A stretch of 64,000 bases of DNA from Lysinibacillus pakistanensis (GTDB taxonomy: Bacteria; Bacillota; Bacilli; Bacillales_A; Planococcaceae), in the NCBI RefSeq assembly GCF_030123245.1, contig NZ_CP126101.1, forward strand, positions 122,501 to 186,500. The letters run 5' to 3'. The position numbers and the translations under genes were made by a program. Below the pieces are notes generated by a model. The model had not been told where the DNA came from. It did not search any database and was given only the letters and a program-made list of their open reading frames with translations. This document shows positions 11,364-15,894 of this stretch, in pieces (the stretch's first letter is position 1; the number at the start of each line of letters is the position of its first letter).

Positions 11364-12035
11364 ATGAAAATTCTTGTTGTGGATGACGATGTGCACATCT
11401 TACAGCTTGTGAATATATATCTTACAAAAGAGGGCTATCAGGTTTTACAGGCGGAAAATGGACAGCAGGCACTACAATTACTTAAGGGGAGCTTACCTGA
11501 TTTAGCAATTGTAGATGTGATGATGCCTGGAATGGATGGTTTTACACTTACGGAGATTTTGAGTCAAGATTACGATATTCCTGTTTTGCTGTTAACTGCA
11601 AAAGGAGAGCTTGAAGATAAGGAACGAGGATTTTTAGCAGGCTCAGATGACTATGTTGTGAAACCTTTTGAACCAAGGGAATTGTTATTTCGTATAGCGG
11701 CTATATTACGTAGATTAGATAAAAAAAATCAAATTACTATCCAAGTAGGTAGGCTAATCATTGACCGTCGAAGCTTTGAGGTTGTCATTGGAGAAGATAC
11801 ATTAGTTTTGCCATTAAAGGAATTTGAGCTACTTGCTTTACTCGCCTCACGTCCAAATCAGGTATTTACACGTAGTTTCATTATGGCACAAGTGTGGGGC
11901 TATGATTATGATGGTGATGAGCAAACGTTAAATACGCATATGAAGCGCATTCGAGAGAGATTGCACCACTATATAACAGATGTTGAGATTACAACAGTGC
12001 GTGGTGTTGGTTATAAGCTTGAGGTTATTACATGA
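11364..12035 (+). CDS. hssR: Haem-response regulator HssR-like (OmpR family)
   Basis: A 223-residue response regulator: receiver domain at 1-118 with acidic D7-D9, phosphoacceptor D51 and the KPFEPREL switch near 102, then an OmpR winged-helix domain at about 128-222 ending TTVRGVGYKLEV. Its stop overlaps the start of an HssS-like kinase by 4 bp. Assignment to HssR rests mainly on the partner kinase and on an HssR-type direct repeat at 13412-13431. In Staphylococcus and Bacillus, HssR activates the haem exporter hrtAB; no hrtAB is in this window. Confidence 0.8.
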   Translation: MKILVVDDDVHILQLVNIYLTKEGYQVLQAENGQQALQLLKGSLPDLAIVDVMMPGMDGFTLTEILSQDYDIPVLLLTAKGELEDKERGFLAGSDDYVVKPFEPRELLFRIAAILRRLDKKNQITIQVGRLIIDRRSFEVVIGEDTLVLPLKEFELLALLASRPNQVFTRSFIMAQVWGYDYDGDEQTLNTHMKRIRERLHHYITDVEITTVRGVGYKLEVIT

Positions 12036-13405
12036 TGAAAACATTATATAGTAAATTTGTAATCACAACGATGCTTGTTATGATTGGTAGCTTGTGTATA
12101 GGCTTTCTAGCGACAAATACTTATTATCATCAAGTTGTAAAGGAAAAAAATGATGCTAAAAATGTGAATATTGCGCGGGAAATTGCGAGCTATCTAGAGA
12201 CCACAAAGCCTGAAGACCTTGATAAATATTTCACAACTTTAGGCGGAATTGGCTACCAAATCTATGTTACAGATGGTGATGAAGGGCAATTTTTTGGTGG
12301 TGAATACCGTGATAAATCACTGTCATCTAAGGTAGTTGATCGTGTTATAGGTGGGGAAATTTATCATGGTATGCGTGAATTTCCTAAAGAGACATTTGTG
12401 ACAGGCTTTTTTGCGAATGAGCTTATTAATACGATAGGTGTACCATTTACAATTGAAAATAAGCATTATGCATTGTTTTTAAGACCTGATATTCGATTAT
12501 TATTCTCTGAGGTTCATACAATCCTAGCGGGGCTTATTTTAGTAATGACGATCCTTAGCTTATTAGCCATGCTATTATTTGCTAAAGCATTAATTCGCCC
12601 CATCACAAAGCTAACTGAGGCCACACATCAACTAGCCCATGAAAAATTTGATACGTTATTGAATATTGATCGTGCAGATGAGATTGGGCAGCTGGCAATT
12701 AGCTTTAATGTCATGACAGAAAAATTACAGGAAAATGATCGCATGCGTAAGGAATTTATTAGTAATGTATCACATGATTTTCAGTCACCATTGCTAAATA
12801 TTCAAGGTTATATAGATTTATTAAAGAATCCTTCGCTAACAGAACAGGAGCGGCAGGAATATACAATGATTATTGAACTGGAAACAAAGCGCCTTTCTAC
12901 ATTAACGAAGCAGTTACTTTTGCTGACTTCATTGGATCAATCTACAAGATTATTAAAGTGTGAACCTTATCGCTTAGATGAGCAATTGAGGGAGACTGTT
13001 AGCAAGTATCGCTGGCAACTTGAGGAGGCAAATATGCAATTAACCTATCAGCTTGTGCCCCTTATTTATAGCGGTGATGCAGGACTGCTACAAAATGTTT
13101 GGGATAATTTGTTGACCAATGCTATTAAATATAATGTCGAGAACGGAGAAATTCATATTCGTTTACAGGAGCAATCGACCTATGTTGAGGTACTAATCGA
13201 GGATAGTGGTATAGGAATAACGACTAATCAATTACAGCAAGTATTTGATCGTTTTTATCGAGTAGATGCTTCAAGAACAAAGCAAGGGACTGGGCTTGGG
13301 CTAGCTATTGTTAAACAAATTGTAGAACTACATGAAGGCTCAGTTCAGATGGAAAGTGTTATTCATTCTGGTACAAAGGTTTTTATCCGTTTACCAAAAT
13401 TGTAA
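12032..13405 (+). CDS. hssS: Haem-sensor histidine kinase HssS-like
   Basis: A 457-residue membrane kinase: TM1 at about 10-30, an extracellular sensor of about 130 residues, TM2 near 165-190, HAMP at about 190-240, then HisKA and HATPase domains. The sensor carries FFGGEYRDKSLSS and EFPKETFVTGFFANE, which recall Staphylococcus aureus HssS (GEPFREDTLS, ALFVTGFFDN). The phosphoacceptor box is SHDFQSPL with H248, a slight variant of the usual SHELKTPL. N box NLLTNAIKYN, G1 DSGIGI and G2 GTGLGLAIV are intact. Translationally coupled to hssR. Confidence 0.82.
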   Translation: MMKTLYSKFVITTMLVMIGSLCIGFLATNTYYHQVVKEKNDAKNVNIAREIASYLETTKPEDLDKYFTTLGGIGYQIYVTDGDEGQFFGGEYRDKSLSSKVVDRVIGGEIYHGMREFPKETFVTGFFANELINTIGVPFTIENKHYALFLRPDIRLLFSEVHTILAGLILVMTILSLLAMLLFAKALIRPITKLTEATHQLAHEKFDTLLNIDRADEIGQLAISFNVMTEKLQENDRMRKEFISNVSHDFQSPLLNIQGYIDLLKNPSLTEQERQEYTMIIELETKRLSTLTKQLLLLTSLDQSTRLLKCEPYRLDEQLRETVSKYRWQLEEANMQLTYQLVPLIYSGDAGLLQNVWDNLLTNAIKYNVENGEIHIRLQEQSTYVEVLIEDSGIGITTNQLQQVFDRFYRVDASRTKQGTGLGLAIVKQIVELHEGSVQMESVIHSGTKVFIRLPKL

Positions 13406-13411
13406 TAAGGA

Positions 13412-13431
13412 GTTCATGTAAAGTTCATGTT
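13412..13431 (+). promoter_or_regulatory. HssR-type direct repeat
   Basis: GTTCATGTA, 2 nt, GTTCATGTT. This is the architecture of the HssR box described for S. aureus hrtAB (two GTTCATATT units 2 nt apart), with one change in the left repeat beyond the shared A-to-G. It sits between hssS and the next gene, 49-68 bp upstream of its start. Confidence 0.7.
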
Positions 13432-13479
13432 CCCCCAATAAACTACTGATAGTTGAAAAAGCTTAGGGGGAATAATCGA

Positions 13480-13884
13480 ATGGAACAAAAATGGAGTTTA
13501 CGTTTAATACGCCTTGCTGCAATTTTTGCGTTGTTTGGAACGTATTTGGGTTCACATATGTCCGGTTCAGGAAGTTATCAATTTAGACCAATACATGCAC
13601 ACGTTTTACTAGTAGGCTGGTTAAGTATGTTTGCATGGGGAATTTTTTACCGTGCGTTCAAAGTGAAATCTCAAAAATTGGTAACTATACATGGCTGGAC
13701 AGCTATTTTAGGTGTTTTTGGCTTAACGTTAGGGATGTGGTTTTACAATTTAAACCCATTCAATTTTAGCAGTACATTTACATTAATTTTCTTTATTGTA
13801 GGTGGGACAACCTTGTTAATAAGCTTTGCATTATTTATCGTTGTAACATTTATGATTCAACAAAAAGAAGAAATGAAAATGTAA
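13480..13884 (+). CDS. Small four-helix membrane protein resembling a haem-copper oxidase subunit I fragment
   Basis: A 134-residue protein with four predicted transmembrane helices. The second contains RPIHAHVLLVGWLSMFAWG, like the His-rich helix of cytochrome oxidase subunit I families; other histidines occur at the end of TM1 (SHMSGSG) and before TM3 (TIHGW). It may bind haem. The start at 13480 has TAGGGGG nine bases upstream; a TTG at 13453 would lengthen it but has no site. The gene lies 74 bp after hssS and directly behind an HssR-type repeat, so haem-dependent induction is likely. Function is not established. Confidence 0.75.
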   Translation: MEQKWSLRLIRLAAIFALFGTYLGSHMSGSGSYQFRPIHAHVLLVGWLSMFAWGIFYRAFKVKSQKLVTIHGWTAILGVFGLTLGMWFYNLNPFNFSSTFTLIFFIVGGTTLLISFALFIVVTFMIQQKEEMKM

Positions 13885-13889
13885 GGCTA

Positions 13890-13928
13890 ATACCGTGTCA
13901 CATTTAGGCTAGTAGGTGACACGGTATC
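13890..13928. terminator. Hairpin between convergent genes
   Basis: ATACCGTGTCAC and GTGACACGGTAT form a perfect 12-bp stem with a 15-nt loop. No clear U-run follows on either strand, so termination is inferred from the convergent layout. Confidence 0.5.
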
Positions 13929-13941
13929 CTCGCTTAATTGG

Positions 13942-15894
13942 CTATTCTTTTATATTTTCGAGAGACATCTTTAGCCATTTTGTTGCCTCATTATAATCTT
14001 GAGCAACACCCAGCCCCTTTTTATACAGCATACCTAGCTGAAATTGGGCCTTTTGATGGCCTTGATTAGCAGCTAGACGATAAAGTTGAGCGGCCTTTAC
14101 AAAATCCTTAGGGACACCCTGTCCATGACAATGCATTTGAGCTAATTGATATCGTGCTTTAGCATGCCCCTGTGCTGCAGCCTGTTCAATCCATTTCGCA
14201 GCCTCAGTATAATCCTGTTCGACCCCTTTTCCTTTATCAAATAAATTTCCAAGCTGGTATTGAGCACCTGCATGCCCTTGAATGGCTGCTAGCCGATAAC
14301 AGCGCCGTGCCTCTTCTAAATCTTGTTCAATTCCTAAGCCCTGTTCATATAAAAGTCCCAATTGGTATTCTGCTTGAATATGAGACTGATCCGTGGCTGC
14401 CCTCCACCATTTCGCAGCCTCCCTATAATTTAATGTGCCACCAGCTTCATTTACATATAATAATCCAAGCTCGTACTGGGCATCGGCATAGCCTTTTTCT
14501 GCGGCTTTTTTAAAATAAGGTAAGGCTTTGTCAGACTGCTCAAGCTGATATACATACATACGCCCAAGCTCGAAGCCTGCACTTATATGTCCATGACTAG
14601 CGGCGAGCTGCAACCATTTTTCAGCTAAAGCTATATCTTTTTCCTTTTGATACAGTAGACCGAGACAATATTGAGCATTTGTATGCCCACTATGTGCCGC
14701 AAGCTTAAACCACTTAATAGCCTCTACTTGGTCCTGAGCAATACCTTGACCTGTGTTATAGAGCATCGCTAATTGAAATTCTGCATTCGTGTGGTCTTGG
14801 AGTGCTGCCATGTGGAACCATCTAGCAGCTTCTTCAAAATTTTGTGTGATACCACGACCTTTTAGATACATGTAGCCGAGATTATACTGGGCACTTGCAT
14901 CACCTGCTAAGGCGGCCATTTCAAAATAGGTCACCGCCTCTTCATAGCTTTGCTCTACACCTGTTCCGTTATGATAAAGAAATCCAAGGTTATTTTGAGC
15001 ACTTGTATTGCCTTGATTGGCTGCAGAAATATACCATTTTGCTGCCTCAAAAAAATCTACAGGTACACCTAGTCCTTGATTAAAAAGTACGCCTAAATTA
15101 TACTGAGCATCAGCATTTCCTAAATTCGCAGCCTCTTTATAGTAATGAGCTGCTTTCTCATAATCTTGCGAGACACCCTGTCCTAAATGATAAAGTACTC
15201 CTAAACTATATAAAGCATTTACATCTTTTTGCTCCGCAGCTCTCTCATACCATTTTCTTGCTAGAATATAATCTTTTTTGACACCGCGACCGTGATTATA
15301 AAGCACCCCTAAATTATATTGGGCGCTTGGATTGCCCTGTTTTGCTGTCATCTCGAACCAGTCTGCTGAATTTTTATAGGCCTCTACTGACTGATGCTCT
15401 TGATGTAGTATATTGCCATTTAAAATGGATGTTAAATCTTCAAAATTAGAGCTTTTACTTGGTAATTTGGCCTTGAAGCTTCGATCGTAGCGTTTAAGAA
15501 ACCACTCTACAATATCACTTAAATAATCAAGAACAATTTTCGCAGCCTTTGCCTCGACAACCTCATTGCTTTGACTGGAGGCCATTTTATTCACAAGGTT
15601 CATTAGTAAATAGATACGGCGTGGATGTATTTTAGCAACAAAATTACGTTGATTAAGTAAAGAATGTACGCTTTTTACCCTAGGTTCCACTTGCATTTCT
15701 AATTTATAAATTTCATATAAAATTTCCTCTAGTACGAGAAGTGATTTATGTAGGGATAGAGCTGGCTTCGAAATAGCGAATGCATTTGCATCCTGTAAAT
15801 TTTCAGCTAAATTTAGGAAGGATAGTGCTCTTACTTTCTTACATTGATCTTGTAGGATTTCCTCTTGCCTGACGATTGTCCTCACCTCTTTCAT
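13942..15894 (-). CDS. Sel1-repeat (TPR-like) protein with helical N-terminal domain
   Basis: A 650-residue protein with 13 consecutive Sel1-like repeats from about residue 185 to the end, each of the form ...AQYxLGxLYxxGxGVxxDYxEAxKWYxxAAxQG, making an alpha-solenoid for protein-protein contacts. The first ~165 residues are helical and lack repeats; the pattern of LVLEEILYEIYKLEM and VLDYLSDIVEWFL resembles a degenerate DUF4145/HEPN-type bundle, but no RxxxxH motif is present. No signal peptide or membrane segment, so it is cytoplasmic. The ATG at 15894 has only a weak AAAGAGA upstream. The partner is unknown; neighbours give no clear hint. Confidence 0.85.
   Translation of the reverse strand: MKEVRTIVRQEEILQDQCKKVRALSFLNLAENLQDANAFAISKPALSLHKSLLVLEEILYEIYKLEMQVEPRVKSVHSLLNQRNFVAKIHPRRIYLLMNLVNKMASSQSNEVVEAKAAKIVLDYLSDIVEWFLKRYDRSFKAKLPSKSSNFEDLTSILNGNILHQEHQSVEAYKNSADWFEMTAKQGNPSAQYNLGVLYNHGRGVKKDYILARKWYERAAEQKDVNALYSLGVLYHLGQGVSQDYEKAAHYYKEAANLGNADAQYNLGVLFNQGLGVPVDFFEAAKWYISAANQGNTSAQNNLGFLYHNGTGVEQSYEEAVTYFEMAALAGDASAQYNLGYMYLKGRGITQNFEEAARWFHMAALQDHTNAEFQLAMLYNTGQGIAQDQVEAIKWFKLAAHSGHTNAQYCLGLLYQKEKDIALAEKWLQLAASHGHISAGFELGRMYVYQLEQSDKALPYFKKAAEKGYADAQYELGLLYVNEAGGTLNYREAAKWWRAATDQSHIQAEYQLGLLYEQGLGIEQDLEEARRCYRLAAIQGHAGAQYQLGNLFDKGKGVEQDYTEAAKWIEQAAAQGHAKARYQLAQMHCHGQGVPKDFVKAAQLYRLAANQGHQKAQFQLGMLYKKGLGVAQDYNEATKWLKMSLENIKE

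Follow-up and report, generated by a model that had tools for sequence, protein, structure and literature searches.

A small membrane protein as a very probable member of the HssR regulon in Lysinibacillus pakistanensis

In the available portions of the literature, the two-component system HssRS is portrayed chiefly as a switch that controls a single exporter. According to the accessible parts of the respective reports, F25, R94, F128 and R163 are the haem-pocket residues that matter in S. aureus HssS, and Arg163 takes part in haem sensing (PMC11237747); C. difficile HsmA resides in the membrane and binds or stores haem but does not export it (PMC12670364; PMC11442138); B. thuringiensis hrmXY encode HssRS-regulated membrane proteins that act independently of HrtAB (PMC10179345); and B. 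anthracis HitRS, with a related repeat, responds to envelope stress and shows cross-talk with HssRS (PMC3968170). L. sphaericus possesses HssRS/HrtAB, the sections available making no mention of the gene treated here (PMC5467902). Across the available parts of the literature on HssRS with Lysinibacillus, hrmXY, small membrane or oxidase-like proteins, MMPL and HsmA, no gene for the small membrane protein described below (SM) was found in an HssR regulon. The soil bacterium Lysinibacillus pakistanensis carries the SM gene directly behind an HssRS-like pair, in a stretch of 64,000 nucleotides (contig NZ_CP126101.1, positions 122,501 to 186,500, forward strand; the window). The conserved direct repeat, or box, in front of this gene, the occurrence of the same box before hrtBA, MMPL and HsmA genes, and the mirrored gene layout of another clade make SM, as judged from sequence comparison, very probably a member of the HssR regulon. 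The features of the locus are the following.

11364..12035, + strand: HssR-like response regulator, OmpR family, 223 aa, with Response_reg and Trans_reg_C domains; 47.7% identity to annotated S. aureus HssR over 99%
12032..13405, + strand: HssS-like sensor kinase, 457 aa, HAMP/HisKA/HATPase; 36% to S. aureus HssS; F25, R94 and F128 kept, R163 replaced by His
13412..13431, + strand: HssR-type direct repeat GTTCATGTA-N2-GTTCATGTT (N2 = AA), from sequence and conservation in relatives
13439..13444, + strand: probable -10 element TAAACT, starting 10 bp past the second GTTCAT; TAnnnT in the same register in SM and hrtB promoters
13465..13470, + strand: probable ribosome-binding site AGGGGG, from sequence
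13480..13884, + strand: SM, small four-helix membrane protein, oxidase-module-like, 134 aa, from sequence, helix and fold comparison
13594..13602, + strand: codons of His39-Ala-His41, proposed haem ligands; H39 and H41 invariant in 103/103 distinct sequences

The box and the genes behind it

The regulator and kinase reading frames overlap (11364-12035 and 12032-13405), and the exact repeat begins 6 bp 3' of the kinase stop (13405), spanning 13412-13428, or reaching 13431 when the last GTT is counted; its end is 48 bp from the SM ATG (13480). It follows the published format of the HssR box. An intact SM gene was found in 30 of the 32 genomes of the genus, and the box stands in front of it exactly in 28 of the 30 and with one mismatch in the other two (L118 and L119); the repeat between hssS and the gene of a 134-residue membrane protein, pointed out in a first-pass annotation of this DNA, is thus conserved. 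The pattern GTTCAT-N5-GTTCAT has three zero-mismatch matches in the genome, a single contig of 5.25 Mb, versus none for the reversed control pattern, the window holds two matches at up to one mismatch (0.58 expected), and the genus genomes contain 123 exact matches versus 31 for the control. A chance origin of the repeat was ruled out by its conservation in place and by the reversed-pattern controls. By its conservation before SM and the distant hrtBA, and by its fixed distance to a TAnnnT -10 element, the repeat at 13412-13431 is a real promoter element.

The kinase, called hssS in the first-pass annotation, proved to be the top match of S. aureus HssS among 55 in the genome (36%, residues 1-452, E 7.7e-83), the second-best reaching 27% with E 1.1e-45, and it is similar to HssS in both its sensor and its catalytic region. 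The four pocket positions are occupied by F, R, F and His. Taken with the 36% match and the 47.7% identity of the regulator, this indicates that orthology is good and that the pocket is mostly, if not wholly, kept.

The annotation had further stated that no hrtAB exporter is adjacent. This is right for the neighbourhood, but the exporter genes are not missing: a HrtB homologue lies at 4444522-4445568 (33% to the Listeria protein), with a HrtA-like ATPase next to it (43% to the Listeria one), at 4.44 Mb of the contig versus 0.136 Mb for the window locus. A repeat with one mismatch, GTTCACCCTCCGTTCAT, is found 48 bp 5' of the start used for this hrtB. The idea of a genome without a haem exporter was ruled out by this distant pair. 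HrtB was detected in 29 of the 32 genus genomes (30 loci, E up to 1e-40), and the box precedes hrtB exactly at 28 of the 30 loci and with one mismatch at two; 27 of the exact cases come from reading the flanks and one, L083, whose flank is incomplete, from the genome-wide listing of exact boxes. Five genus hrtB promoters (L072-L076) have four tandem GTTCAT units with an 11-bp period instead of two. As a positive control, 36 loci from other Bacilli were taken in which HssRS has HrtB, but no SM, in its vicinity: around the hrtB start the box is exact in 16, has one mismatch in 15 and at least two in 5, the fetched Listeria and Priestia loci among these last; about 1.5% of random windows of those loci contain the box at up to one mismatch. 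When SM and hrtB promoters with a box at up to one mismatch were aligned on the repeat, positions 27-28, counted from the start of the box, read T-A and position 32 reads T, which puts a TAnnnT 10 bp past the second GTTCAT, with frequencies of T 0.98, A 1.00 and T 1.00 in 63 distinct SM promoters and T 1.00, A 0.83 and T 1.00 in 24 distinct hrtB promoters.

Unforeseen by the first-pass annotation, the same box turned up in sister species in front of HsmA and MMPL genes, among 20 regions fetched for their exact boxes in the genus. Of the three genus genomes without an hrtB match, two (G009 and G014) have the box in the same register 5' of a 706-aa MMPL transporter. MMPL genes stand directly 3' of an HssR-type box at L294 and L295, in genomes without an hrtB match, and at L255, L257, L275 and L277, beside HssS and with no HrtB nearby. 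The position of MMPL behind this box where hrtB has no match or HrtB is not nearby suggests an exporter of the resistance-nodulation-division (RND) type with a putative role in haem export. The exact box, with TAnnnT again at +10, precedes HsmA in all six genus genomes that carry it (L314-L319), and the sister-species protein matches TIGR03987 with 178.3 bits (cut-off 78.2) as well as the cytochrome b561 family of Pfam. HsmA is under a MarR regulator in C. difficile, yet has an HssR-type box in 6/6 genomes here, which suggests a regulator swap. With hrtB, MMPL, HsmA and SM all behind it, a single kind of promoter seems to drive the exporter HrtBA, the putative exporter MMPL, an established haem store and SM.

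GTTCAT repeats of another class lie 5' of alpha/beta hydrolase genes (L004 1501-1517; L060 6484-7605; L301, L302 and L304-L309), and at L304 the repeat precedes a PF00144 beta-lactamase-fold protein. The inspected boxes of the hydrolase and beta-lactamase-fold genes are all without the TAnnnT register, and one in this genome stands directly behind another response regulator-kinase pair, in which the kinase shares just 27% with HssS. The notion that every GTTCAT pair is an HssR site was ruled out by these register-less boxes, one of them adjoining another two-component system. This class is probably the regulon of that other two-component system, and cross-talk in this genus, by analogy with HssRS and HitRS of B. 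anthracis, is possible. Five of the 20 genus regions hold boxes that look like chance: L298 lies within a TTGTTCAT-like repeat, at L303, L311 and L312 the genes are of other kinds and the register is absent, and L310 has no gene behind it.

Distribution in other Bacilli

The SM profile matched 62 of 398 Bacilli genomes at E up to 1e-12, two of these weakly. Sixty SM loci were fetched outside the genus, six weak matches (E above 1e-14) being dropped; two strong matches with internal stops (G360 and G245:C28) were left out of this 60-locus box count, and L203 could not be oriented and is unscored. At the 29 loci adjacent to HssRS, one of which (L205) was scored by a kinase fragment, the box is exact in 9, has one mismatch in 6 and two in 2, and is lacking in 12; one further adjacent locus, L225, has a box with two mismatches. 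In clade f15/g25 there are 11 SM loci without adjacent HssRS, with an exact box in 9, located 66-68 bp 5' of the SM start, and a box with two mismatches in the other 2. At the HssS loci of three genomes of this clade (L288-L290), hrtBA follows right behind hssS in all three; the box is exact in two of them, that of L290 lying 3 bp behind hssS, and has one mismatch in the third. The layout of this clade is the mirror image of the window, with hrtBA beside HssRS and SM elsewhere under the box.

A separate scan of named genomes covered 41 SM loci, which overlap in species with the 60-locus set, and the counts are kept apart. There the kinase is upstream of SM in 35 of 41, and the box is exact in 21, with one mismatch in 7, with two in 1 and absent in 12, one of which (L022) has merely 45 bp of upstream sequence. 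A survey of hssRS neighbourhoods, as suggested in the first-pass annotation, found the gene beside hssRS in relatives as well: SM is nearby at 68 of 119 HssS-like loci (23 of them with MMPL and 2 with HrtB), the remainder having HrtB without SM (36), MMPL only (6) or none of these (9); these 119 kinase loci mix both SM sets and are not independent.

The SM protein and competing readings of its role

The HAH...GW helix noticed in the first-pass annotation is present in SM, one of four helices, and its HxH pair, His39-x-His41, invariant throughout the distinct sequences, lies near the predicted outer face of the membrane. The likeness to an oxidase, also proposed there, holds to the extent that SM resembles part of a haem-copper oxidase; the similarity of its fold to the last third of subunit I is suggestive only. 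At curated cut-offs neither Pfam nor NCBIfam has a match for the window SM, direct profile comparison with the four full-length oxidase subunits of the genome gave no significant alignment, and a PDB sequence search with the SM profile returned only seipin at E 0.14-0.15. A paralogue in the same genome, 25% identical, aligns with COX1 positions 334-401 at 27.6 bits (cut-off 34.8). Besides SM, the genome encodes a small HAH...GW protein (2948915-2949301; L002 1477-1863) that is nearer to COX1 than SM; judged by eye, its neighbours resemble a D-Ala-D-Ala carboxypeptidase and an ABC transporter. That SM is a true oxidase subunit was rejected, as it is a single module below the COX1 cut-off, and SM as HsmA was rejected for want of a TIGR03987 match at E up to 1. 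Downstream, a perfect 12-bp inverted repeat, ATACCGTGTCAC...GTGACACGGTAT (13890-13927), lies between SM and a convergent Sel1-like repeat gene (13942-15894) and is likely a terminator common to both.

On sequence grounds, the locus is probably a haem-stress module, with SM as a membrane haem-sequestering protein analogous to HsmA from another sequence family, a reading we hold with some confidence and no more. HssS would sense haem at the membrane and phosphorylate HssR, which would bind the 13412-13431 repeat abutting the -10 element, switch on SM and act also on the distant hrtBA box. SM, with the putative fold of a haem-copper-oxidase module, would bind excess membrane haem through His39-x-His41 and keep it less reactive until it is removed by an exporter, which would be HrtBA here and might be MMPL in sister species, or would hand it on. 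For this locus we infer haem as the signal, HssR binding, haemin induction, haem binding by SM, its sequestering role and any oligomer. HssRS and the hrtB box are kept after decay of SM in two genomes (L284 and L285), and SM is kept in three without an hrtB match, which argues for separate outputs. A more specific proposal, that SM is a free-standing single module of the haem-copper-oxidase fold and forms a homotrimer with a 12-helix core and haem b on the outer-face HxH pairs, serving as an inducible haem reservoir or haem-detoxifying enzyme, is speculative and rather doubtful.

Several observations weigh against the sequestration reading. No box (at up to two mismatches) was found at 12 of the 29 HssRS-adjacent SM loci outside the genus; in 8 of these 12, SM lies at most 17 bp from the kinase frame or overlaps it, so that a promoter of its own is not needed, while L217, L219 and L222 have 73-91 bp between kinase and SM. 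The 18 non-adjacent loci outside the mirror clade gave an exact box in 1, one mismatch in 2, two in 1 and none in 14, and the hydrolase class means that a hexamer pair alone is no proof of HssR. As for the protein, Foldseek gave E-values of 0.4 and higher, which are not significant. Pfam COX1 (PF00115) is not matched by the window SM at E up to 1, and only 5 of 35 family members match it, weakly (E up to 10; best 7.6e-4). SM is also dispensable, being decayed in 2 of the 32 genus genomes (G022 and G023). The haem-sensing Arg163 of S. aureus HssS is His in the window kinase, and a subgroup of SM-linked kinases (L030, L032, L041-L043 and L046) lacks both Arg163 and Arg94 (Glu, Asp or Ser), so that the ligand sensed there may differ.

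The kinase residues give some room to a drifted two-component system, in which SM would answer another signal, such as another tetrapyrrole or envelope stress. Among the 68 SM-linked kinases residue 163 is His in 64, Arg in 2 and Gln in 2, versus His in 15 and Arg in 21 of 36 HrtB-only kinases, counts that are uncorrected for common descent, and this association may reflect lineage, an adaptation to SM or a change of ligand; the available account of HitRS, whose related repeat answers envelope stress, points the same way (PMC3968170). However, the window kinase keeps F25, R94 and F128, HssRS-HrtBA loci with His163 also occur, and hrtB and hsmA have the same box, which leaves a changed signal distinctly unlikely. 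The His163 association and the genetic linkage of SM to the kinase would equally suit SM as a modulator of HssS that passes haem to the kinase or withholds it; this is very improbable, as SM is unlinked to HssRS in the mirror clade and HssRS and the hrtB box outlast the decay of SM.

Two further readings concern the protein itself. SM could be a haem-b enzyme of the oxidase or styrene-oxide-isomerase type that clears a toxic by-product of haem stress (a lipid peroxide, an epoxide or nitric oxide) in the membrane, which we consider unlikely since no catalytic residue set is assignable and the isomerase is not among the PDB matches to the SM profile. Alternatively, it could be an accessory that presents membrane haem to the HrtBA or MMPL pump, in keeping with MMPL near 23 of the 68 SM-linked HssS loci (HrtB near 2) and with the kinase-SM-MMPL order of A. 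pseudofirmus, where a degenerate repeat lies 5' of the pump. Yet G001 has kept SM although no hrtB and no exact-box MMPL was found there, and hrtB persists in G022 and G023 without an intact SM; the pairing is not obligate, and an accessory role seems quite improbable.

Comparison with known systems

The locus resembles HssRS/HrtBA of S. aureus, Listeria and B. anthracis, as far as the available descriptions go, in its regulator-kinase pair, in the direct repeat before the targets and in the genus hrtB genes under the same box, but SM, not hrtBA, sits behind hssS, hrtBA is elsewhere in the genome, and Arg163 has become His. With HsmA, described as holding haem, SM shares the character of a small haem-response membrane protein, whereas C. 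difficile HsmA is controlled by the MarR protein HsmR and SM sits behind an HssR-type box; the sister-species HsmA matches the cytochrome b561 family, and SM matches neither this nor TIGR03987. The possible likeness to haem-copper oxidase subunit I (PF00115) lies in a four-helix module like its C-terminal third and in the HxH pair, although SM is a single 134-aa module below the Pfam cut-off in which a copper site is not expected. Styrene oxide isomerase, known to bind haem, belongs to a different pathway, and no match of the SM profile to it is listed.

The nearest published case is hrmXY, whose products are HssRS-regulated membrane proteins and are likened to SM by description only. The first-pass annotation had proposed a new haem-response effector; at the level of the sequence family this holds, with the reservation that hrmXY may be related. 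Should HrmX or HrmY belong to the SM family, its regulation would be known already from that case, and what is new would be the fold and the spread. From the comparison, these proteins of about 130 aa, of which the one in the window is unmatched in Pfam and NCBIfam at curated cut-offs, gain a testable role, and if SM binds haem it would be a minimal version of the oxidase module carrying the haem-ligand pair. The trimer reading, if true, would mean HssRS regulons in which HrtBA and MMPL can stand in for each other as exporters, and SM and HsmA as sequestrators. Set beside the single-exporter switch of the literature, the comparison suggests a modular regulon: the promoter design stays the same, and the export parts and probable sequestration parts behind it are swapped.
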